From Linnemannia elongata (taxonomy: Eukaryota > Mortierellomycota > Mortierellomycetes > Mortierellales > Mortierellaceae), in NCBI GenBank assembly GCA_036320915.1, contig JAXBDG010000010.1, forward strand, positions 1,364,001 through 1,428,000: a stretch of DNA of 64,000 nt, read 5' to 3'. Positions 26,931 to 43,630 of the stretch are shown here, piece after piece; the first letter of the stretch is position 1, and every line of letters starts with the position of its first letter. Both the position numbers and the translations under genes were made by a program. The notes below the pieces were generated by a model that worked only from the letters and a program-made list of their open reading frames with translations, did not search any database and was not told the DNA's origin.

Positions 26931-26944
26931 CAACGCGGAAATGC

Positions 26945-27256
26945 TTACAACCCTTGTAAATTAAATGCTTACAAGGGTGTATGCATGAAAGTGTACTATG
27001 AGTAAAGATTCGATGAAAGGGGGTCTTTTACATTAGTGTAAGACGCACTCAACGAGTGAATAAACACACATAGGTAAGCATTTCATAAAACGAAGGTCGA
27101 ACAACCCAGTAAGGCTCTGGTTTTTTTGGAATGTTTACAATGGTGTATCAATTAGCCCCAAATCCATTTTTTACATACTTGTAGGAACATACGGCATCGC
27201 CTTTTCTTACCCCATTGTAAACAAAACTCGATTCTGCTTCCTTTACAACTGAGTAA
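26945..27256 (+). promoter_or_regulatory. array of palindromic TTACA-N4-TGTAA motifs (candidate transposase binding sites)
   Basis: Copies occur at 26945-26959 (N5), 26969-26981, 27028-27041, 27064-27077 (reverse orientation, TTACC-N4-TGTG), 27135-27147, 27171-27183, 27207-27220 (TTACC) and 27243-27256 (AGTAA arm). A weaker copy starts at 27502. The spacer is four bases in nearly all and its sequence varies, as expected for a dimer binding site rather than a simple repeat. The mirror array lies in the right repeat. Confidence 0.65.
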
Positions 27257-27961
27257 GGATTACAGCAGAAAGGAGGCGGTTTTTATTTGCCGACAATTGG
27301 TCTAATCCTGGTTTGACCAGCGCTGCTGGATGCCTTAAGTCATTTGACTAGGCGACGCCCTTATCTGTGAATTGTCCATTTTTTTTGTTTTTGCCTCATT
27401 GATTTGACAGAAGGCAACAAAAGGTGTTTGACGCCTTGAGTGTCCATTTTGCTGGCGAATTTTTTTTTGTCTTCAGGATGCCGGCCATCTTGACCTGACT
27501 TTTACATCCTTGTTACAGTCATTTTTACACCCGTTCACACTTGAACCTGGCCAGAGTCGAAACACAAATTAGCCTCATCTTTCAGGCCATTACTGAACAT
27601 GCACCGTCATTCGCTTTGTCTTCTTTTCAGATCTCGTCTCTTCAATCTCTCTTTATATTCAAACACAAGGAAACAAGGCTAAATCAAGCTCCACCAAGCT
27701 CAGGATCCTACACAGTCCTTGTTTGCTCGTTTGTTTCTTTGTCAAATATGTCATACAGGACGAATAAAATAAGCAAAATATAGTTTATTCTTCGAGGTAT
27801 CTTATGCCTTGCCGTCCGTGTAATTCTGCACTCAAAGAGGAAGTGATTACAGGGAGAGGTGCCAAGGACCTGATTGTGCATCTAAAGGTAGAAGAGAATA
27901 AGAATTGGTGAGAGATGAAAGGTAGAAGGAGAGGCTAAAGGAGGGCAGAGGGAAGGTGAGG

Positions 27962-28172
27962 AGGAGTAGAGGGAGCAGCTAGAGGGGAGTAGAGGGGAGC
28001 ATCTAGAGGGGAGTAGAGGGAAGCAGCAAGAGGGGGGTAGAGGGGAGCAGCTAGAGGGGAATAGAGGGGAGCAGCAAGAGGGGGGTAGAGGGGAGCAGCT
28101 AGAGGGGAATAGAGGGGAGCAGCTAGAGGGGAGTAGAGGGAAGCAGCTAGAGGGGGGTAGAGGGGGGTAGAG
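27962..28172 (+). repeat. 24-bp minisatellite (GAGCAGCTAGAGGGGAGTAG type)
   Basis: About eight units of a G/A-rich 24-mer occur here; the right inverted repeat has about six in reverse complement. The copy-number difference is the largest difference between the two terminal repeats. Confidence 0.85.
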
Positions 28173-29103
28173 GGAAAGGGGGAAGGGTGTTAAGAAAAAA
28201 GAAAAGAGTGAAGGAGAAAGGGAGACAAGGGATAACGTGCGTGGAGGGAATGGGGGACGGATGGAGGGATAAAGAGGAAGAGGAGAGTTGAGTGTCATAA
28301 GGCGATATAATAATACGAAAGAGAAAAGGAAAATGTAACAGAAGGGAGGAAAAGTCCAATTCGGACTGTAGCTCTTTTTAAAACGTTGTAAGAATTCTCA
28401 ACAGCTGAGCTGTGTACAATGAGTCGTTTTTCTAATGACAGTCGTCCATTGCTCCCTCTCTCTCCTTCCTCTCCGCTCCCTGTATCTCTCATTTCGTAAA
28501 CTTGCACCCGTGCACGGGTGCTTCGAAAAGATAGAAAACAGAGAAAGGCAAGCGATACTAATCACCTGCATGCTCTTTTCTTACCCACACAATTATACAT
28601 AAGAAAAACAGTTAAGCAAAAACAACAACGATGAGGTAGCAGGAATGAGTGATTAAGTTAAGGAACAACCACCTCCACCATCAATCCAACAGAAAAACAA
28701 AAGATGGTGAGGGGCAGAACGAGAGGAAGCCAAGGAGGAACGATACAAGCTTTCAAGTAGACAACTTCCTCCTACTCGTGTTATAAAAAAAGAGAGAATT
28801 GGGCAAAAACATGTGCCTACGTCGCTTTCTTTTTTTTTTTTTTTTTTTTTTTTGTTTTCTTCTTTTACAAAGTGGTCAAAGCATAACGGCGCGAATGGGC
28901 CTCCATAACCTTATACTTTTCTTAGGCCTGGATCTTGATAGAAACAACAAGGTGTACAACCAAGGACGAATATCCCCAAATAAAAAGCTAGCGTGGGGTG
29001 AGAGAGAGGGCGAAAGGCAAGCTCGTGAGAACTCAGAATACGAGCCTTGCAAAGACTGACCTGGGATCAAAGGGTGCATGATGTGACGTATGCCTCTCCC
29101 CCT

Positions 29104-29842
<739 letters not shown>

Positions 29843-29844
29843 CT

Positions 29845-30480
29845 GCACATGTTTGCACGGGCCTTTCATTGATTTTCCTTCCTCTTTTTTTGACCACATC
29901 CTCTTCCCTTTATTCCCTCGCTTGCCTCTTTTTTTTTCTTGGATTCTGGCGAAGCGAATGCTTGACCAATATGAATAATACCCAATTAGTATAGCCATCT
30001 ATTTACCCACAATCACTTACGTAACACGCTCGTTCGCGGCTCCGTGAAAAAGGAGATGGAGGTGTGTGCGTGTGTGCGTGTGTGTGTGAGAGAGAGGGCG
30101 AGGCAGAGAGGACAAGCATGACTGAGGGACTCGAAAGAGAAAGGGTGCACATGTTTGCACGGGCCTTTCATTGATTTTCCTTCCTCTTTCTTGACCACAT
30201 CCTCTTCCCTTTATTCCCTTGCTTGCCACTTTTTTTATTTCTTTGATACTGGCGAAGCGACTGCCCGGCCGATATGAGTAATACCCAATTGATACTGCCA
30301 TCTATTTACTCATAGTCACTTACGTGACATGCTCGAGCGCGGCTCTCCGTGAAAAAGGAGATGGAAGTGTGTGCGCGTGTATGTGTGTGAGAAGGCGAGA
30401 CAGAGGCGAGACAAAGGGCGAGACAAAGAGGAGGAATGTGACATAGACTTGGAACACGATATCGTGTGCATATTTACATG
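29845..30480 (+). repeat. ~302-bp tandem repeat at the inner edge of the left inverted repeat
   Basis: A unit beginning gcacatgtttgcacgg starts at 29845 and again at 30147, with a partial third copy starting near 30460. Each unit has a CT-rich part, a tggcgaagcga block, a taatacccaatt block, a cacttacgt block and a GT/GA microsatellite. A more diverged copy is at about 29375-29500. The right inverted repeat ends inside this array (40299), so the array probably provided the breakpoint. Confidence 0.75.
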
Positions 30481-30808
30481 TATCTCCCATTGATTCTACC
30501 TTCTGTTTTAAAAAATAGCCGTGGCCATTTTTCTCATTCTATTCCATTTTCTATCGGACATATTCTTTATTCTGACTCTGCATCCTTCACATTCTTTGAG
30601 CCCTATCAGAATTCAAACCTACATACGGCGCAAGCATATGGCGTTTAAGGCAGCTGCAATTTTACAACACCGTCGATTCATCTAGTAGATTGACACCGAC
30701 AAAAGACACTTTTGCTCATGCACATACCTCCCCTATTGTTTTCATAATTGATAGTGATGTAGTACAAATAAAAAACACCTGCAGTTTATTCATGCAAACT
30801 TGCTCATT

Positions 30809-31621
30809 TCACTGATGTTTTGGTCTCTTCACATTCAACAAGTCTTGCCTTGCAATGTAACTGGTGGGATCCATAAAACAAGGTCTACTGTTCTTCGAGC
30901 GGGTTCCTTGAGGGATACGACGTTTTCTATTGTTTGTTCTTTCCGATCGGCGCCTCTTGACGAATCTTGGAGAGGAATTGCGAACCTCATTGGTATTCGA
31001 TCCACGCATGTCGTAAAAGGTGAAGAAGGGATGGTCGAGTTCTTGACCCGCAAGCTGAAATGGCTTTTCGAACGATAGGCTTGGTGATTGAATTGGAGGC
31101 AAAGTAACATCGGTGTCGTCTCCGGACAACTCCTCGGAAGTATCGTCCATGTATCCAGGAGACAGGGGGGATGTTTCATCGCATCGACGTAGGCTACCAA
31201 TATCAACATCCCCCAGCGACAGACCAAAGTGATCAGAGGGGTGTGCTTTTGGCTTGGTGTCGACCAGTCCTTCGTCCAAAAACGCGTCTAATTCAACGAC
31301 CTCCGCAGGCAAGAGCGAGAGGATAGTCATATCAGGGGCTGGCATTACACAAGACGAGCGATGAAGCTGAAGGACTGATCGACCTGGGCTGGAGGCACCA
31401 CAATAGCAAACAAACTCCATTGATTTGCTAGCCTTGCGGACAAATATCTCAGTACGTGGAGATTGCGCGGTGGGGTGGTTGTTTTTGAGAGACAGTGAGT
31501 AGGGGGTGTGATAGTCGTGAAAATGAAGCATTTTTTTTTCAATGATGAGAGGAGAATGAGGTCGCGCTGGCCACTTCATAGCGCAGTGGTAGTATGTGCA
31601 GGTGGGGAGGATGTTGGCCAT
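30809..31621 (-). CDS. element-encoded zinc-cluster protein A (unknown function)
   Basis: Single ORF of 270 residues inside the transposon. The N-terminus has two Cys/His groups: a Cys-x4-Cys with a later His pair (residues ~8-36, CTYYHC ... HFHDYH), then CYCGASSPGRSVLQLHRSSC (residues ~73-92), a C-x-C ... H-x3-C cluster. The middle is acidic and Ser/Pro-rich. The C-terminus is basic (RFVKRRRSERTNNRKRR), which suggests nuclear localisation or DNA binding. The same two-cluster layout recurs in the other minus-strand gene at the opposite end of the element. It could be an accessory DNA-binding factor of the transposon; no named family was recognised. Confidence 0.55.
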   Translation of the reverse strand: MANILPTCTYYHCAMKWPARPHSPLIIEKKMLHFHDYHTPYSLSLKNNHPTAQSPRTEIFVRKASKSMEFVCYCGASSPGRSVLQLHRSSCVMPAPDMTILSLLPAEVVELDAFLDEGLVDTKPKAHPSDHFGLSLGDVDIGSLRRCDETSPLSPGYMDDTSEELSGDDTDVTLPPIQSPSLSFEKPFQLAGQELDHPFFTFYDMRGSNTNEVRNSSPRFVKRRRSERTNNRKRRIPQGTRSKNSRPCFMDPTSYIARQDLLNVKRPKHQ

Positions 31622-32486
31622 ATTTTTTGATTAAAAAGTGAAGGACCAGAAGAAAAAAAAGTTGATGGTATCTACATGGAATGAACATTGGTCTCTTTAT
31701 ACAGTCCTGAAAAGCATAGACATTCAGGGCAGCGTTATTCTTCGTCTTGTCAAGTGTTAAGTATATCCTTAAACAACACTTTCTGCGTTTTTACTGTTCC
31801 TATTGCTTAAAGTGCTTGCGTTAGCGCAAGTGTAATGGTCGATGTACTTAGGTAATCAAACCCTCATATTCAATCCAATTCTGGTAAGTAAGAGGTACAT
31901 CCTGTTGGTTCCTGGGTATTGGCCTTTTTGTTCCTATACCGGTACAATGCAAGCTATTTAAAAAAATGCAACTGCATGGTAAGTCAACGCTCGTGGAAAA
32001 ATCGATTGCTAATTACTGATCAAGATTTTACTAAATGCCCAAGCGCACAATCCTTCCGAAGATTTTTTTGGATAAACTAAAGCCAGATTGACTTTTTCAG
32101 GCCTAGAGTTACTTAGGACAAGGGTCATATTCGGAGTCACCCTTGCCGTAAAAAGGAGCTTCGCCTAGTCAATGAAGGATTATGTTTGTTTGCTTATTTT
32201 AAAAAAATGAATCAAGTGCGAGTTGCTATTATACCTACCTCAAATGAATACAACCTTAGCACGACAATGGTGTTTCTCACATTGCAATCTGTGAAGAATA
32301 ATAGAGGTGTAAGCCCGCTTGCCTCTAAAACGCCAAATTTTGGATATCATTGGGTAGACTATAAAAACAATGATTCATAAGTAAAATTCCTCAATTTGTA
32401 AATTCTTACAACCATAACAACACCACCACTATACCAACACCACTGCTAATCCTACCATTAGTGCTACCACTCCCACCATTCATGTA
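31622..32486. other. divergent promoter region of the transposon
   Basis: About 865 bp separate the minus-strand zinc-cluster gene from the plus-strand transposase gene. No convincing gene is present (a 64-codon ORF at 32186 has no recognisable features). Two regulatory-looking sites near its right end are listed separately. Confidence 0.5.
32360..32411 (+). promoter_or_regulatory. putative TATA box and TTGTAA-N4-TTACAA palindrome of the transposase gene
   Basis: TATAAAA is at 32360-32366, about 120 bp before ATG 32487. A perfect 16-bp inverted repeat, ttgtaa-attc-ttacaa, lies at 32396-32411. Its arms are the terminal-array arms in opposite order, so the transposase might bind here and regulate itself; that is inference. 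Confidence 0.4.
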
Positions 32487-35400
32487 ATGATTCTCTGCAG
32501 TTTTTGGTACTTCACGTTTGAAACTAATTGTACATGGCAATCGTCTGATATCCCTACCCTTGCATCTTTCATTACCAAAAGCATGCCCTCGATTATCAAC
32601 ACCGCTTCGACCCCAATCGACGTTGACGCCTTGCCGCGGTTGCAGTCTGATGCGGCTTGGATTTATGGAAAGATCTGGCGAAACCGTGTTCCTTGTGCCC
32701 AGCTCCTAGAAGTGAACGATTTCCCTCAGTTTTCCTCGACCCGTAACACGGGTGAGCTACCGCATTGCACTACTTTGCCGGCAACAGTCCTTAACCAAGA
32801 GAGCCTTGCAGCTTTGAGGACTATTCCCAATCTCCAGTCCTATACCGCGACCTATAACAAGTTCAAGGACAACAACAACAACCTCGGCCTCTGGATTAAC
32901 ATTGGATCGACCTTTGTCCCCTTCCGCGTCTCCGAAGAAATAGACTTTGTCTTCTTGAAGGAGGTTGTCCAGTCTGGCTGCCTTATTGAGCATCTTCACC
33001 GAGCGCGCCGTTGGATGAGGAACTCTGTTGCTGCGTTGAACCCATCATTTTTTGAGTGGTACCAGCAACAGATGAAGATTATTCGCATTGATGACGCGCT
33101 GTTTTCTCTTGGTCCGGAGTCGGTTTCCCTCGCTTCCCTTCTCCCTCTCGCCGGCCAAGAGTGGATGACCTCAACCATTCTGGATGCAATCATGTGCGAT
33201 TTTGAGGTCCGATACGGATTGTACAACAGCAACACCAACCTGTTTATTTCGCCTTGTAGGCTGTCTGATTGGATGCGGGAGCACCCTAACTTAGGCAACA
33301 AAACCTTTCACAACTGGAATGTCGATGGTCTTAGAAACGGAAGCTATGACGCCGTCTATTCCATAGTCTACCTAGGCCGCCACTGGGGAGTGATCAAGTT
33401 GGATATGGTTTCGTGCGCAGTTTATGTTGGAGACGGAATGCGTTATTCGGACAACGGATACTCCACCGCCGTCCATGTCCTCAAGGCCTGGGTTAGTTTG
33501 GGGATATCCAGCCTTAAGTCTAAAAAATGGACTAGAACGAATATTCAACGCTTACACCAACCTCGGCAGTCGGACGGCAGCTCGTGTGGCGTAATTGCCG
33601 CACATATGATTGAGAACGATATCACAGGTCAGGAGTCTATAACCATCTGGACTGAAAAAGATAACGTTAAACACCGTGCCAAGTATTTGGCTCGATTGAT
33701 GGGCTTTGACAAGGTACACAAATGAGAATTTAGCCTGTGCCTTTTGTAGTTGTAAACGAAATCAAAATGCTTGTGTACTCTTGTTTAATAGACCTTGAAT
33801 TTTTTGTAGCCTAGGATTTCTCTTGATACAAAGGATGGCCAACTCAAAATGGAAAAGACGGCTATGGAAGCCGCGTTTGCCGAGACTACCATTTGTAGCA
33901 AGAACAAAGCCGAACCCTCATCTGCTTCCTTTGAGGCCTCTCCGGGCACAGAGCAACAACCAGTTCCTCAGTTCAAGGTAATGAAAAAAAAAAATCGCGA
34001 CAAAAAAGATAATAATCAAGAAACCAAGAAAAAAAACACCTGGGCTCACTCTTTTTTATTTTTATTTCTGAAAAATGTAACGTGCTTCTCAACGTAGAAT
34101 CTCTCCCCGACCTCTAGCAGCTCAAAGAACAGTGATAAGTCGTTAGACTCTTTCATCGCCCCCCCTAAAACACCGCTGACTACGCTTCCCAGCCCTTTGC
34201 AGCAAAAGGTACCTTAATGTCGCTCAAAACAATAACCCAGAAGAGTATGAAGTGACGTGGCCCATTTTGCTAACTTTTTTTTCATGGTTTTTTTAGGCTA
34301 AGGAACTTGGCGACAAATTCGAGAGCATGTTCTCTCATAACAACCTCGAAAAGGAGGTAACATAAAATCAAGACGGTGCTTTCATTACATTGTGGCATCC
34401 TGCCCTATTGCATTTGTGTATTCAATGCCTCTACCACTTTCTCCTCTATCATTCTTTTTTATTAGGGTGAACATTGGTCGGACAATGCTTTTACTGACTC
34501 GGATGAACAGAAAACGTTCAAGGACGATGACGAAGACGATGACGAGGCCGAGGGCCAGGACCAGGACGAGCTGTATGACGTTGAGACGGAAGAAGAGTTA
34601 TATTCGTCGTTCAATAACAACGCCTCATCAACCACTCTTTCCAGTTATCAAAACAAAAACATCACTTCGTCTTACAATCACGCAGCAGCTGTCAGTGCCG
34701 TTCTTTACAACACATCCTCAACACCTGTATTTTCCGCTCGGGAGCGTATGAGGGAGGATGAGAGCATGGATGAGATCGACGAGGACGAGTGCAGATATGA
34801 AGAGGATGGGTCGGTTCATGTTCCGGTCAAGGTTGGCGATGTTGCTAGTGAACTGCTGGTGGGCTGGGTGCCCACCTTTCACTATTGTCTTGGATCAAGG
34901 TCGGCTGCGGACGTATTTTTGAGGTCTTGGGCACTCAAAAAGGGGCACAAGCTTATAATTCGCACCTCGACTGTCAATGCCGGTAAGCAATATTGGTTTG
35001 TACATGTTATATCAAGTGTGAGATAGAGTTGAGCAAGAAATCGAAATCGCGAACCTTATCGTCTTTTTCATTTTTCTACCTCCTTATCCTCTTTCCTCAC
35101 CACTAAATAGTCAAGTACGTTTGCAGCTTCTTTGGGTTCTATACATCCAAGAAAGTTGCTGACGAGGATCGACAGCACAACAAGCGTGAGAGTCCACGTT
35201 GTGGTTGCCCATTCGCGATCAGCATATCTTCCCCTCTGTCCATCGCTCCTGATTACCACATCACCTCCTTCAACCTCGATCACTGTGAGCACCAGTTCGA
35301 TTTTAATCTTGGCCGAACCAACCCCTTGACGGCCCCTATGATCGCTTCTATTGGGAAATGTGCCCAGATTCGACTGTCCTACAAGCAAACACTGGACATT

Positions 35401-38033
35401 TTGCGTATCGAATTTCGGGATGCAAAGTTCTGCAAATATCAGGTATTGTTGTGGACAGTTACGGTTTGAGTGACAACTTTACATTTCGACTCAAATCAAT
35501 TTTCTCATACACATTTTTTCTCTACACACAAAAAAAAAAAAAGGTCCTCAACCGTCTTAAGGAGTTTAGGACTTTACTCCATGCCATCCAGATCCCTCAG
35601 ACGGTCCAGCTCCTAATCGCCTTATGTATGAGAGCAAATCAGGAGAAGGGATGGTATATTGCCACCGATGTTGATGACAAGAACCAGCTTGTCCGGGTCT
35701 TTTGGATGACCCCAGGACAGAGGGATCTTTTCCGTCGCTATGGTGATGTGCTAGTGCATGACAATACTTACCGCACCAATCGCCTTGGCCTCCCGCTGCA
35801 CAACTTTGTGGTCGTCGATTGCGAATTCAAGACACGACTCGTTGCGACCGCTCTATCTCGTCATGAGACAAAAGAGGACTACAAATGGGTTCTCTCCAAG
35901 CTTCAAGACGCAACCGAAGGACTACTGCCCAAGGTTATGATGGTTGATCAAGATGCGGCAATGGATAGAACGCTTCCTTTGGTGTTTCAGGGTGTCCATG
36001 TGATTAACTGCATATGGCATATCCAGGAAAATCTGAGGAAGCATTTGTCTTGTAGATTGAATGACAGATACAGTCAATTTTTCAGTATGTTCAAAACCGC
36101 CTGTTGTGCCTTAACAGCCGGCGAGTTTGAACGCATCTGGGCACGCATCCTTCAAAACTTTGGAGGAGACGGCTTTGGCATCTCTATCACCTCTACTATT
36201 ACTCCTAGCATCGATACCACCACCATCGCCACTACCATCGTCGACGAAAACGACAGCAACAACAACCTCAACACTCTACCCAGCCTCTCCACTCCACCCA
36301 ACCTTTCCACTCCAGTAAATGTCGCCACTTCCCACATCGCTGCTGACCCCATCTTGTCCGTACAGGAGCGTGATACTCTCGAATCTGGCGAAGTTGGAGT
36401 ACATCTTGCAAGGCTTTACAACCGTCGTCATTTCTGGGCAGGACCATGGGTGCAAGCCTCTTTCACCGCAGGGATGCGCTCCACGCAGCGCGTTGAAAAG
36501 AACCACGATGTGCTCAAGATGTTTCTGCACAACAGCAAGACTTCCCTATCGGATCTGTTCAAAGCGATCATGAACAAGATTGAAGATGAAATCGATCTCT
36601 TCACCATTTTGTCGAATGATCCGAATGACGCCAAACCGATGAGACGCTTAGGCGTCAGCGATACGACCTACGATATCTTTGGTCAAGTCCTCGATGCCAG
36701 CAAGGTATTCCTCAGCCAGTGGGCTCAAGGTCAGCTGCGAACCGAGATGGATTATTCCTTTGGCCTCAAGTTCACAGTCGTTAATTTCGGAGCGGTTCCT
36801 TATGTCCAGGATGGTGATTTTTGCTTGGTGAGTTTTTTAATGATCCTTTGCCTTATTTTTAACCTCTTTGCTACTTTTTCATTCCTTTTACGAGCATTTT
36901 TTTCCTTGGTTTATGTAACACAAAGGAAAATGCACTAATCGCCGGTTTATTCCATTCATTCCCTCCAGTCAAAACTATCCCGCGCCGAACAACTTCAGCG
37001 TGGCTCGGTTCATGCTTTGCTCGCGTCCATCCCCAGGCACACATCGGAAGGGGTTTTCCGTGTCTCTTCTATGGCTGACACAGGAAAAAGCACGCGCCCA
37101 GAGTATGTGATCTTACGAACAAACCGCACCTACTTCTGTACCTGCGCATTGCAACAGAATAAGGGCATTGTTTGTAGGCATTTCTTTTGTTTGATGATGG
37201 AGGATGCACGATTCCTTTTTCACCCTTGCATGATTCTGCCACGCTGGTACAAAGAGGGGAAACAATTTGATCCGAACCTCAAGCAACAACTCTCCGACAA
37301 ACCTTTCCTCCGCGCACAGACGGTAACAGTCAACGAGGGTGCCAGCAAAGACCCGGTCGGCACGGATCTATCCATCGATACCTTTATGGACGACTCTAAC
37401 TCTATCCTTCGACCTCCACCTGTTGCTCGTCATTCAACACAACCCAAAGCCCCAGGGAACAGGATCCTTATCTCCGCCAAAAGTCTCGTCAAAAACACCA
37501 GTAAGCTGGACGGGATCGCGGAGACGATGCAAGCCCTTGAAGAGGGTGCTCGCCTTCTAGTTCAACAGTCACAAGTGCCTGGAACAGTGGGCGCAGATTT
37601 GAGCAAGGGATTGGATCTAGACAGTATAGTCGATGGAACCGAAAATGACCTGAAAGGAGAAGGTCGTCCACGTGGAGTCAGCCTTCCGCACGGTTGGAAG
37701 TCCAAGGCCACCAAGAAAGCAAGCAAGACTATTACCACTGGTGCAGCAATCCAAGCGACCAAAGCGACCAAGGCGACCAATGCGATCAAGGCAACCAAAG
37801 CAATCAAGGCGACCAAAGCGACCAAGGCGGCCAAATCTACAGCAGCCAATGGAAATGGTGTTCGCGTTGCTGTCAAACGAACAAGAACGGGAGACGATAA
37901 TGGCAGCGACGGCGGTGATGTTGAGGAGGTAGACTTGCCAAAGAAGATGCAGAGAGGGCCAAAGTCAAAGTCCGGCGAGGGGCGAGGTTCAAGAAGGCAG
38001 AGAAGCGGGAGTATGGATGCCCCTGGCCAGTAA
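32487..38033 (+). CDS. Ulp1-type (C48) protease - MULE transposase fusion protein
   Basis: Exons 32487-33713, 33810-33977, 34098-34208, 34297-34356, 34466-34982, 35111-35442, 35544-36827, 36969-38033 give 4764 nt and 1587 residues, all GT-AG with phase kept. Residues ~290-390 form a Ulp1/SENP papain-fold protease with catalytic His299 (GRHWGVIKLD), Asp316, Gln361 and Cys367 (QSDGSSCGV). An acidic, Ser-rich linker of about 190 residues follows. A FAR1-like zinc domain spans ~640-740 (SFFGFYTSKK, PRCGCPFAIS, HCEH). The MULE DDE core has Asp878 (VHDNTYRTNRLG), Asp940 (MMVDQDAAM), Cys961-x2-His964 and Glu1123 (STQRVEKNHDVLK). A SWIM finger, C-x-C-x9-C-x-H, is at 1290-1304, then a basic tail with ATKATK repeats. 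It should catalyse cut-and-paste transposition; the protease may process or deSUMOylate a nuclear partner (inference). The true start may be ATG 32583 or an upstream exon. If the first intron is not spliced, the protease ends alone at 33725. Confidence 0.8.
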
Positions 38034-38952
38034 TGGTGCATGTGAAGGGAGAGAAAGGGTTGAGGAGGAGGCGAAAAAATGGTAAAATATGAAACAAGAG
38101 AATGAAGCCTGAAGAATACTCAATTAAAGACATATGATATTATGTGATTTTTTTTTTATTCAAATACAAAGTCTTTGACGTGGTCTAAATTGAGGTTGTA
38201 AGATGGTAAAAGAAGGGAGCAAATCATGGATGTGTATCGTGCTGCGGGTGTTAACAGATGGGTAAAGGATGTGCCTACGGTCGTGTTTTGGCAGCGGGAG
38301 AAGGAAAGAAATGAAGAAGGGAAGGGAATTTAGGCGAAAAGTAACTGGTTTGTGGACGACTCTTTCTTTGCAGGCCCTTTACTCTCGTAGCTGCGCGCCC
38401 ACCCGATAAAGTATGGTTAGGGAAACTCTTCTTTCGACGGTTTCATATGTGCTGCTTTGTGTGATTGTGAATAAAATAAGACACCGTTGCCGATCGTAGT
38501 TAAGGGATGGGTTGCACATTGCTTGCTACGTTTGTACTGTGAGGGACACTATCTTTTCTTTGTGGTATTCTCCACCACCCCCCACCCCCCCTCCCCGGCC
38601 CAAGTAAAAGTAGGCATGTGTCCCTTTTGACTATCTTAGACTCGTAGCACGCACTTGTAGACGGGTAAGGCCTGTTGATCAACTGTGTTTATGTGTCAGT
38701 AAGTGTAATTTTGACCGAGTGGTTGGCGTAGGTCGGGAGTGAGTACTAACGGGTCAACGGCACAGAGAAAGAGAACCATCTGCAATGTGTAAAGGCGTTG
38801 GTGCCAAGGGCTTTGAAAGGGGGGTTTACATTGTATACTATGGTCAAACGTAATCAGAAAAATAACGAGCATGATGGTGGGGTTCAGGACGACTCTTGTT
38901 GTTTGCATATAGCCTTCTCCTCCTTTACACTCTCTCCTTTGCGCACCTCCTT
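38034..38952. other. intergenic region within the transposon
   Basis: About 920 bp between the convergent transposase and zinc-cluster B genes. It contains a T-run (38148-38158) and a C-rich tract (38576-38594). Nothing else was recognised. Confidence 0.5.
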
Positions 38953-40062
38953 TCACTCCTCCGCCTCCTCCTTCACATCCTCATCCTTATGCACTTCTCC
39001 CATCTCCTCAGCTGCATCCTCCATGTCCTGTGAGTCCTTCTTCGCTATCTTCATTTTATTCTCTTCTCCAGCCATCCCACGCGAGAATTCCTCATTGTGG
39101 TGTGCAGTAACTTGAGCCTGCGCCATGTTTCTTTCCAAGCTATTTTCATACTCTGGGGACTCGGACTCTGAGATAACTTGATCGTGGTCATCAAGATGCG
39201 GGATGTAGCGTCTCAGGTCGACACCAAGCCTAAAGTGTCCATCGACAGAACTTCCTGGCATGGTGAATCTTTCCTGTGAATCTAAGAAAAAAAAAACGTA
39301 AGAGTTAAGTTAATTTGAGAAAACGCACAGCCACATGCATAAGGAGAGCAAGTGTTTACCTGTCTGCCACCCAGGCTTCTCAAATGTGAACCTCTCGATC
39401 CTGTTAAGCAGTCCCTCAGTCTTGTTCATCAGTTTCACAATATTTTCAATGATCTTGTTTTGCTTGGCGGAAAGGTCCTTGTTATTATCCATCAGTTGTT
39501 TAAACGATGTCGAAAGGTCGGCCTTGAGACTATCGATGCTGTCCTCGATCTGATATAGCCGCTCAGACCCCATCTGACTGTACCCAAGAAGGGCCATAAC
39601 GGTGTTCTGGAACCGAACTATGCCTTGCACTTGCTCCTCGTTGGAGCCGTCCATGTCGATGTCGGGCTGTAGAAATGGACTCATGGGAGCTCGATGGCCT
39701 GAGCTTGCGCTTGAAGAGGCACTTGTCGCTGGGTAGGGAGCCTGACGCGCCCGCTGCTGTCGTCCTAGTTGTTGGCGGAGTAAACGGAAGCGAGCGGTGT
39801 CATCGGAGCGTACAAAACGGCAGACAGCAATATGCTTCAACACATTCTGACGAACATTGGTGGTTACTTGGCATTGGGTCGACGGACATGGATAATGATT
39901 ATCGTGTTCCTCGCTGCGTTCAACCATGATATCGGGGAGTCCAGGTCGTTGAACAAGAACCGCAATCTTCTCATGGTATCTCTTGTTATGCTCCTCGGTT
40001 TGTTCCTCCGGAGGGATCCGGCAAAGTCTTCGATCAAAGTGTGGGCAGAGGACGGTAGGCAT
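38953..40062 (-). CDS. element-encoded zinc-cluster and coiled-coil protein B (unknown function)
   Basis: Two exons on the minus strand: 40062 down to 39360, and 39281 down to 38953 (intron 39282-39359), giving 343 residues. The start MPTVLCPHFDRRLC was chosen because it opens the first Cys/His cluster; an in-frame ATG at 40239 would add 59 poorly composed residues. Cluster 1 is C-x7-C with a later H-x4-H (residues ~6-30). Cluster 2 is CPSTQC-x11-H-x3-C (residues ~61-79). A Ser/Ala-rich linker follows, then a probable coiled coil with DSIDSLKADL and KQNKIIENIVKLMNK (residues ~160-225), and an acidic Glu-rich tail. The cluster layout matches zinc-cluster protein A, so the two probably share ancestry. 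Oligomerising DNA binding as a transposition accessory factor is inference. Confidence 0.6.
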
Positions 40063-40984
40063 CGAGGGAGTTATGAGTGGAAATGTGTCTAGAATACTTT
40101 TCTGCTGTTGTGATATGGAAGTGTTGGAATTGGTTTGCTTATGAACAGTATGCAAATAAATAAAAAGAAAAAGAGATATAGATGTCGTTGTTGTACGAGA
40201 TTTATTTTGTGGTTCGTTGGGTGTGCATTGCAAGGACAAACGCGATTCTGCTTCTTCTGATGTGGTCCTGTTGGCTTCGGCGCGGACGGGCGTATCATGT
40301 AAGTGACTATGAGTAAATAGATGGCAGTATCAATTGGGTATTACTCATATCGGCCGGGCAGTCGCTTCGCCAGTATCAAAGAAATAAAAAAAGTGGCAAG
40401 CAAGGGAATAAAGGGAAGAGGATGTGGTCAAGAAAGAGGAAGGAAAATCAATGAAAGGCCCGTGCAAACATGTGCACCCTTTCTCTTTCGAGTCCCTCAG
40501 TCATGCTTGTCCTCTCTGCCTCGCCCTCTCTCTCACACACACACGCACACACGCACACACCTCCATCTCCTTTTTCACGGAGCCGCGAACGAGCGTGTTA
40601 CGTAAGTGATTGTGGGTAAATAGATGGCTATACTAATTGGGTATTATTCATATCGGTCAAGCATTCGCTTCGCCAGAATCCAAGAAAAAAAAAGAGGCAA
40701 GCGAGGGAATAAAGGGAAGAGGATGTGGTCAAAAAAAGAGGAAGGAAAATCAATGAAAGGCCCGTGCAAACATGTGCAGCTGTTGTGGTACGGGTTTATT
40801 TTTATTTATCCGTTTTTTTAACGAAGAAACGCTCAACCGATCAAGCCACACGAGCCGATACTGCTTATTATCTGCTCTGTGGTGCAAAATAAAGAAAACG
40901 CACTCTTTCTTCTCGTTAATTCTACCCATACTTCTCACACTCTTTTCATTTTCGAGTCCCCCAGTCATTCTTGTACTCTCTGTC

Positions 40985-41120
<136 letters not shown>

Positions 41121-42429
41121 GCACACACTTCTATCTCCTTTTTCATGGAGGGTCGAGGCCGAGCGTGTTATGCACGTGATTGCGAGGTTGGTATCGCCTA
41201 TATCGACCAAGCAATTGCTGGACCAGAGTCAAGGAAAAGAAAGGGGTGAAAAGTATGCAGTCTAAGTTAACGAGAAAAAAAGAGTTGTTTTATTGTTTTA
41301 CACCACTGGAGTGATATTTAACCACAGATGTGATAGTTAATCACAGAGGTGGTAAATAATCACGGAGATGATGATTATTATAAACAATCACGGAGGTGGT
41401 AGTTGAGAAGCGACCATCCGCCATGTGGTGATGTGGTCGCTAGCAGCACTTCTTCGTTAAATAAAAAGACGGGGTAAAATAGAATAAAAACCCCGTACCG
41501 CAACAGGGGGAGAGGCATACGTCACATCATGCACCCTTTGATCCCAGGTCAGTCTTTGCAAGGCTCGTATTCTGAGTTCTCACGAGCTTGCCTTTCGCCC
41601 TCTCTCTCACCCCACGCTAGCTTTTTATTTGGGGATATTCGTCCTTGGTTGTACACCTTGTTGTTTCTATCAAGATCCAGGCCTAAGAAAAGTATAAGGT
41701 TATGGAGGCCCATTCGCGCCGTTATGCTTTGACCACTTTGTAAAAGAAGAAAACAAAAAAAAAAAAAAAAAAAAAAAAGAAAGCGACGTAGGCACATGTT
41801 TTTGCCCAATTCTCTCTTTTTTTATAACACGAGTAGGAGGAAGTTGTCTACTTGAAAGCTTGTATCGTTCCTCCTTGGCTTCCTCTCGTTCTGCCCCTCA
41901 CCATCTTTTGTTTTTCTGTTGGATTGATGGTGGAGGTGGTTGTTCCTTAACTTAATCACTCATTCCTGCTACCTCATCGTTGTTGTTTTTGCTTAACTGT
42001 TTTTCTTATGTATAATTGTGTGGGTAAGAAAAGAGCATGCAGGTGATTAGTATCGCTTGCCTTTCTCTGTTTTCTATCTTTTCGAAGCACCCGTGCACGG
42101 GTGCAAGTTTACGAAATGAGAGATACAGGGAGCGGAGAGGAAGGAGAGAGAGGGAGCAATGGACGACTGTCATTAGAAAAACGACTCATTGTACACAGCT
42201 CAGCTGTTGAGAATTCTTACAACGTTTTAAAAAGAGCTACAGTCCGAATTGGACTTTTCCTCCCTTCTGTTCCATTTTCCTTTTCTCTTTCGTATTATTA
42301 TATCGCCTTATGACACTCAACTCTCCTCTTCCTCTTTATCCCTCCATCCGTCCCCCATTCCCTCCACTCACGTTATCCCTTGTCTCCCTTTCTCCTTCAC
42401 TCTTTTCTTTTTTCTTAACACCCTTCCCC

Positions 42430-42590
42430 CTTTCCCTCTACCCCCCTCTACCCCCCTCTAGCTGCTTCCCTCTACTCCCCTCTAGCTGCTCCCCTCTATT
42501 CCCCTCTAGCTGCTCCCCTCTACCCCCCTCTTGCTGCTTCCCTCTACTCCCCTCTAGATGCTCCCCTCTACTCCCCTCTAGCTGCTCCCT
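42430..42590 (+). repeat. 24-bp minisatellite, right copy
   Basis: About six units of the C/T-rich complement of the left minisatellite, with the same unit variants in the same order apart from two missing units. Confidence 0.85.
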
Positions 42591-43630
42591 CTAATCCTCC
42601 TCACCTTCCCTCTGCCCTCCTTTAGCCTCTCCTTCTACCTTTCATCTCTCACCAATTCTTATTCTCTTCTACCTTTAGATGCACAATCAGGTCCTTGGCA
42701 CCTCTCCCTGTAATCACTTCCTCTTTGAGTGCAGAATTACACGGACGGCAAGGCATAAGATACCTCGAAGAATAAACTATATTTTGCTTATTTTATTCGT
42801 CCTGTATGACATATTTGACAAAGAAACAAACGAGCAAACAAGGACTGTGTAGGATCCTGAGCTTGGTGGAGCTTGATTTAGCCTTGTTTCCTTGTGTTTG
42901 AATATAAAGAGAGATTGAAGAGACGAGATCTGAAAAGAAGACAAAGCGAATGACGGTTCATGTTCAGTAATGGCCTGAAAGATGAGGCTAATTTGTGTTT
43001 CGACTCTGGCCAGGTTCAAGTGTGAACGGGTGTAAAAATGAGTGTAACAAGGATGTAAAAGTCAGGTCAAGATGGCCGGCATCCTGAAGACAAAAAAAAA
43101 TTCGCCAGCAAAATGGACACTCAAGGCGTCAAACACCTTTTGTTGCCTTCTGTCAAATCAATGAGGCAAAAACAAAAAAAATGGACAATTCACAGATAAG
43201 GGCGTCGCCTAGTCAAATGACTTAAGGCATCCAGCAGCGCTGGTCAAACCAGGATTAGACCAATTGTCGGCAAATAAAAACCGCCTCCTTTCTGCTGTAA
43301 TCCTTACTCAGTTGTAAAGGAAGCAGAATCGAGTTTTGTTTACAATGGGGTAAGAAAAGGCGATGCCGTATGTTCCTACAAGTATGTAAAAAATGGATTT
43401 GGGGCTAATTGATACACCATTGTAAACATTCCAAAAAAACCAGAGCCTTACTGGGTTGTTCGACCTTCGTTTTATGAAATGCTTACCTATGTGTGTTTAT
43501 TCACTCGTTGAGTGCGTCTTACACTAATGTAAAAGACCCCCTTTCATCGAATCTTTACTCATAGTACACTTTCATGCATACACCCTTGTAAGCATTTAAT
43601 TTACAGAGTATTGTAAGAAATTCTTTTTTG

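Follow-up and report, generated by a model that had tools for sequence, protein, structure and literature searches.

A putative N-terminal C48 protease fused to the transposase of a Mutator-like element in the fungus Linnemannia elongata

Introduction

Ulp1-like proteases (peptidase family C48) recur across unrelated transposons. The Ulp1-carrying plant Mutator-like elements (MULEs), Kaonashi/KIU and VANDAL, have a C48 domain in the element, as does the MULE described here. Ginger1 is likewise an element with terminal inverted repeats (TIRs), in which Ulp1 is covalently fused to a DDE transposase (PMC2836005; papers are cited by accession throughout, each for a portion of its text). The subject of this study is a MULE of the fungus Linnemannia elongata and the gene it encloses at 32487-38033 of a 64,000-nucleotide stretch of contig JAXBDG010000010.1 (positions 1,364,001 to 1,428,000 of the forward strand, assembly GCA_036320915.1). 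The whole stretch is called the window. A first-pass annotation had read this gene as a Ulp1-type protease and a MULE transposase in one spliced polypeptide.

Other transposons carry proteases of this or a similar kind. CACTA-ULP elements, which belong to the CACTA superfamily of plants, encode a Tnp2 transposase and a ULP1 domain in one protein, and several of them are in rice (PMC2528002). In grapevine MULEs, the ULP1-like region may lie in the orientation of the transposase or in the opposite one (PMC2528002). In hydra and lancelet, both animal hosts, Ulp1 was aligned as a domain of Mutator transposases in the Ginger paper, which proposed an active role of Ulp1 in transposition (PMC2836005). 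For lancelet sequences from another report, MULE transposases were left unconfirmed by Dupeyron et al. (PMC6446971). MuDR-6_HM of hydra is a MULE with a ubiquitin-type cysteine protease motif and is listed with a single open reading frame (ORF), but its protease is OTU and not C48 (PMC6446971). The oomycete DNA transposons CryptonF and CryptonS carry a C48 peptidase, too, together with a tyrosine recombinase, and some CryptonS encode a further protein that bears the C48 (PMC3212892). MuLE elements are described as ubiquitous in fungi in PMC7928374, and Ulp1 is unmentioned in the portion of the paper cited here. In the corresponding portion of PMC9569675, Ulp1 appears in the reference list only.

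Gene structure and protein domains

It is likely that the gene at 32487-38033 on the forward strand encodes a spliced, covalent deSUMOylase-transposase in a recently mobile, TIR-bearing MULE. Fusion at the protein level is suggested by comparison across families and relatives. The predicted order of the chain is an N-terminal C48 protease of the deSUMOylase type, an acidic linker that is probably disordered, a FAR1-type DNA-binding domain, a DDE MULE transposase, and a SWIM finger.

The genome contains at least 24 matches to the MULE domain, at least 22 of them above the Pfam cut-off, and at least 27 matches to the protease, which correspond to 22 loci as each family B copy is counted twice. 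All 22 MULE loci above the cut-off (22 of the 24 matches overall) are preceded on the same strand by a C48-like match, at a distance of 1.3-3.4 kb. The two unpaired MULE matches are fragments below the cut-off. Four families were observed: A (four copies, including the one in the window), B (five), C (eleven), and D (two). The proteases of families C and D are 24% and 27% identical to the family A C48, respectively. As divergent relatives within this genome share the pairing, the protease is probably a functional component of the element rather than an incidentally captured gene.

The eight-exon, in-phase model of the first-pass annotation was confirmed as open over 1587 codons, with exon 1 ending at 33713. 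Extending exon 1 to 33714 breaks the frame, and the end at 33713 restores it. Translation probably starts at the ATG at 32583, giving 1555 residues, because P0003, a 90%-identical relative, begins there. Exon 1 (32487-33713) encodes the C48 (Ulp1/SENP-type) protease. The codons for the catalytic residues begin at 33381 (His), 33432 (Asp), 33567 (Gln), and 33585 (Cys). The presence of these four residues had been pointed out before, and they proved to be invariant in families A, C, and D and in P0002, a protein of Mortierella alpina, at 21-29% identity between families. The domain matches SENP1 by profile and its predicted fold matches SENP/Ulp1; catalytic residues, sequence profile, and fold all place it in peptidase family C48. 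In the predicted structure, the mean predicted local distance difference test score is 46.8. It is below 50 for residues 1-223 and mostly 52-87 beyond, and only the C48 part of the structure is accordingly interpreted. Based on the fold and the catalytic residues, it is plausible that the protease acts on SUMO.

A separate C48 gene with three matches is present at C2:1680316-1681041. It is the best Pfam C48 match of the genome and is probably the host's own Ulp1.

If the protease were a passively captured host gene without a role, its catalytic residues would not be expected to outlast family divergence as deep as that seen here, together with the domain order. Gene capture is frequent in MULEs (PMC13317346), and the five subtelomeric family B copies persist with the protease frame split at one shared place in all five. 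However, the B copy that was read, on contig C18, has a broken transposase as well, and such passive capture is considered very improbable. The gene of the C18 copy is 99.7% identical to A over most of its length, but it is missing 1 base in the protease and 2 bases in exon 5 and has a ~1.16-kb insertion in the transposase core; the sequence beyond exon 7 differs from A. By this comparison, family B appears as a decayed relative of A. The B copies lie near the ends of contigs C1, C13, C17, C18, and C20, with four of the five proteases ~20 kb from the contig end and the fifth ~27 kb. These similar distances suggest that duplication of chromosome ends, rather than transposition, probably spread family B. 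The ~1.16-kb insertion has short imperfect inverted ends with TA seemingly at its flanks, and is perhaps a Tc1/mariner-like element.

Exon 5 (34466-34982) is an open frame that encodes the acidic linker and the start of the FAR1-like domain; a homologous FAR1 start is present in C, D, and P0002. Exon 6 (35111-35442) encodes the FAR1-like zinc domain. Its PF03101 score, 20.0 bits, is under the cut-off of 28.1, and the C and H residues of the pattern are invariant in the alignment of A, C, and D. Exon 7 (35544-36827) encodes the MULE catalytic core, whose domain match (35748-36032) scores 70.5 bits against PF10551, compared with a cut-off of 27.6, which places the protein among MULE transposases. 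The likely DDE codons, read from the sequence, are D at 35760, D at 35946 or 35952, and E at 36495, and the residues are invariant in A, C, and D. Exon 8 (36969-38033) encodes a SWIM-type CxC..CxH pattern (37137-37181, read from the sequence) and a basic tail. There was no Pfam match for exon 8 in the profile search; the SWIM pattern is invariant in the alignment of A, C, and D and is also present in P0002. A FAR1-type domain and a SWIM finger are not found in every MULE.

Junction between protease and transposase

The earlier reading of one spliced polypeptide is well supported by three comparisons: a junction intron present in three families, homology of the linker to P0007, a protein of Linnemannia zychae, and the single chain of P0002. 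Intron 1 (33714-33809) is in phase 0, as are the junction introns of C and D. The donor position is common to A, C, and D within ~1 residue, just beyond the last conserved protease helix. In all three families, the TAG of the acceptor is the in-frame stop bounding the linker frame. The donor of the protease exon is GTAAAT in C, GTAAGT in D, and GTACAC in A. One long exon makes up the linker of C and D and continues into the FAR1-like domain, so that no chain of small exons needs to be trusted there. The next intron, within FAR1, is in phase 1 in A, C, and D. The spliced chains of C (1366 residues) and D (1561 residues) contain no stop and have SWIM and a CCHC-like knuckle at their ends; the knuckle is absent from A. 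The first splice of D was off by one base in frame, and the corrected splice is open. Family C (L003 ~2480-2955) has three tandem 81-nt phase-0 exons between MULE and SWIM, with similar sequences and introns.

From C48 to MULE, eight of the eleven C copies share a spacing of 1332 nt, and the remaining three deviate from it by +90, -30, and +45 nt. For the two D copies the spacings are 24 nt apart, and all of these differences are multiples of three. When five further C copies were aligned over this stretch, no indel appeared in four; the C14 copy carries in-frame insertions of +60 and +30 nt within the acidic linker repeat, where its additional 90 nt are thus located. A gap of 85 nt that closes this alignment only marks the end of the sequence used. 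Among the A copies, comparison of the window gene with the other three places all six frame-breaking indels in modelled introns, and the sole exon indel is 18 bp. The linker of family C (L029 2136-2766) is an acidic repeat with a 15-nt (5-residue) unit.

Relatives outside the genome were sought with the whole chain, with a length filter letting through long proteins only. Among 7988 candidates scored, there was one hit, P0002 (1326 residues). It is annotated as one chain containing C48, a linker, a FAR1-like part, part of the MULE core, SWIM, and the knuckle. The MULE core lacks a stretch, and it is likely that the annotation removed real sequence here. The search with C48 only scored 7996 candidates and gave six hits (P0003-P0008), among which P0007 and P0008 are fungal and both partial.

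P0007 contains 88 residues 66% identical to the protease, followed by a segment aligning with linker exons 2 (33810-33977), 3 (34098-34208), and 4 (34297-34356). The alignment of the spliced exons is colinear from residue 3 to the last, with 31% identity over 113 residues and a score of 111. The maxima for shuffled sequences were 71 (5000 shuffles) and 70 (2000 shuffles), and none of the 7000 was as good. Exon 4, the best conserved piece, alone beats 2000 of 2000 shuffles. Exons 2 and 3 are in register with P0007 in the spliced alignment; each alone is not significant, as 35 and 127 of 2000 shuffles, respectively, were as good. Exon 5 of A is not clearly above chance against P0007 (71 of 2000 shuffles as good), and the linkers of C, D, and P0002 are no better than chance against it. 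A tblastn search of the window with P0007 did not recover the individual linker exons; the match needs the spliced linker.

These data bear on the possibility of two tandem genes with separate transcripts, in which the protease ORF would end at 33725 and the transposase would begin somewhere in exons 2-5. By itself, exon 1 forms a complete ORF, and P0003 ends three residues past the same place. The Ulp1 of plant MULEs is, moreover, given as one of three genes or as part of a VANC gene (PMC13317346). On the other hand, the gap from the protease stop to the linker frame is only 20 nt in C and 82 nt in D, with GT-AG in phase, the match to P0007 starts upstream of the first Met in the linker frame (a part that is weak on its own), and P0002 is annotated as a single chain. 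Two separate genes are therefore considered unlikely.

It is possible, if on the doubtful side, that one gene gives two products, where splicing produces the fusion, and retention of intron 1 or early polyadenylation produces a free protease. This arrangement is compatible with the fusion, and the probabilities of the two overlap. When intron 1 is retained, an in-frame stop at 33723-33725 follows after three codons (VHK here, VKK in P0003), and the donor in A looks weak. The retained readings are, however, of unequal length in A, C, and D.

Another proposal of the first-pass annotation, self-release of the protease by cutting in the acidic linker, is not supported. A protease and a long linker in one chain would suit such a polyprotein, and viral C48-related proteases cut after Gly-Gly. 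But the 1587-residue A chain has Gly-Gly at just two places, residues 1012 and 1548, both outside the linker, and in the linkers of C, D, and P0002 it occurs at no shared place. The lack of Gly-Gly in the A linker makes self-cleavage less likely, and a polyprotein is the least probable of the explanations weighed here.

Several observations weigh against the fusion of protease and transposase in one chain. An open splice chain between the protease and exon 5 can arise by chance: 49 of 400 dinucleotide shuffles of this stretch allow one, and 5 of 400 reach the maximum of the real sequence, 522 coding nt. The chain of the model itself has 453 nt there and is not the longest allowed. An open splice chain by itself is thus weak evidence for fusion. 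Only A has the three introns between exons 2 and 5; C and D lack them. Since the repeat unit of the C linker is 15 nt, length changes in frame are partly expected. Homopolymer runs lie mostly in introns, so that the restriction of frameshifts to introns is also partly expected and is supportive only. Among the A copies, there are 14 distinct exon substitutions, none of which creates a stop, and 9 of them are non-synonymous where 9.9 are expected. In exons 2-5, all six substitutions are non-synonymous. There is no sign of purifying selection in the substitutions among the four A copies; these copies are too young, or the linker is too free, for selection to be visible. Both P0002 and P0007 come from automatic annotation, and their models seem imperfect; that of P0007 is without the catalytic part of the protease. 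Of 7992 candidates scored in the search with the transposase, 46 were hits at E <= 1e-10, the named ones being plant proteins. The best four, P0009-P0012, have no C48 in their predicted chains, which look like intron-blind gene calls. P0002 is absent from the hits of this search, which accordingly cannot count fused against unfused proteins.

Element structure and mobility

The gene is enclosed in a complete MULE of 16,700 bp at 26931-43630 on the forward strand, whose termini are the same in all four family A copies. The window copy has a 10-bp target duplication, ATTCACTCCC, present on both flanks. The other three near-identical A copies have matching ends and their own target duplications of 9, 9, and 10 bp. 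Target duplications in the range of 8-11 bp, which together with TIRs characterize MULEs, are thus found in four of four A copies. The left TIR (26944-30327, forward strand) is ~3.4 kb long and 97.7% identical to the reverse complement of 40295-43617, the right TIR (reverse strand). The shared ends, the TIRs, and the separate duplications of four near-identical copies indicate that the element is a recently transposed MULE. Both TIRs contain long GA/CT microsatellites and a 24-bp minisatellite.

Two more ORFs of the element lie on the reverse strand. The divergent upstream ORF at 30809-31630 encodes 273 residues. Its relative, 34% identical, lies 5' of C48 in all eleven family C copies, which suggests that the ORF may be a conserved second gene of the element; one more relative is on C14 without C48. 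The ORF at 39310-40329 encodes 339 residues and is another candidate for a second gene. It is found in all four A copies and, in one or two pieces, in all five B copies. Its relatives are 83% identical on contig C2 and 27-38% identical on contigs C8, C12, and C31, distant from the C and D copies. An ORF at 38953-39309 on the same strand adjoins the 339-residue ORF and may belong to the same gene.

Discussion

The domain composition suggests a mechanism in which the FAR1 and SWIM parts would bind the element ends and the DDE core would perform cut-and-paste transposition. The tethered C48 would strip SUMO, or a modifier resembling it, from proteins at the element or at the target. Such removal would most likely counter SUMO-dependent silencing, or it would spare the transposase SUMO-marked turnover. 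Retention of intron 1 could add free protease. Plant VANC proteins are a precedent for MULE-encoded anti-silencing (PMC5735166, PMC10398659).

In four near-identical, recently inserted copies, protease and transposase lie in line, and within this genome the arrangement is an old one. A more general proposal can be made tentatively, at somewhat less than even probability: in this fungal group, the deSUMOylase may be integral to the MULE transposase through an ancient fusion, and the element would provide its own SUMO eraser at the ends and the insertion site as a built-in anti-silencing function. A change of the catalytic cysteine in one chain would ask directly if transposition or silencing depends on SUMO removal.

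The first-pass annotation considered a covalent protease-transposase unusual for a fungal element. This view needs tempering, as Ulp1 fusions are reported for Ginger1 and CACTA and Ulp1 is reported in plant and animal Mutators. In the open-licence literature searched, no fungal MULE with a C48 at its N-terminus was found to be described.

The closest described elements differ from the present one in several features. Kaonashi/KIU and VANDAL are non-TIR elements in which Ulp1 belongs to one of three genes or to a gene of the VANC type (PMC13317346), outside the transposase gene in the case of Kaonashi/KIU, whereas the element here has long TIRs and a predicted N-terminal fusion, with a chain that appears continuous by comparison. 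Ginger1 has a core of the Gypsy-integrase type, a GPY/F motif, and a C-terminal Ulp1 (PMC2836005), whereas the protease here is N-terminal and the core is PF10551. MULE-Mucorales of Dupeyron et al. (2019) shares a Mucoromycota host, a 10-bp target duplication, and a SWIM finger with the present element, but it has a 40-bp TIR and no protease is listed for it (PMC6446971). The TIR here, ~3.4 kb, is also far outside the 14-500 bp given for MULEs in that paper and exceeds 640 bp, the largest value seen in the part of its tables cited here. Ulp1-transposase fusions, as in Ginger1 and CACTA, and Ulp1 in plant and animal Mutators are known or reported already; what appears to be new, within the open-licence literature searched, is the predicted N-terminal position of a C48 in a fungal MULE transposase.

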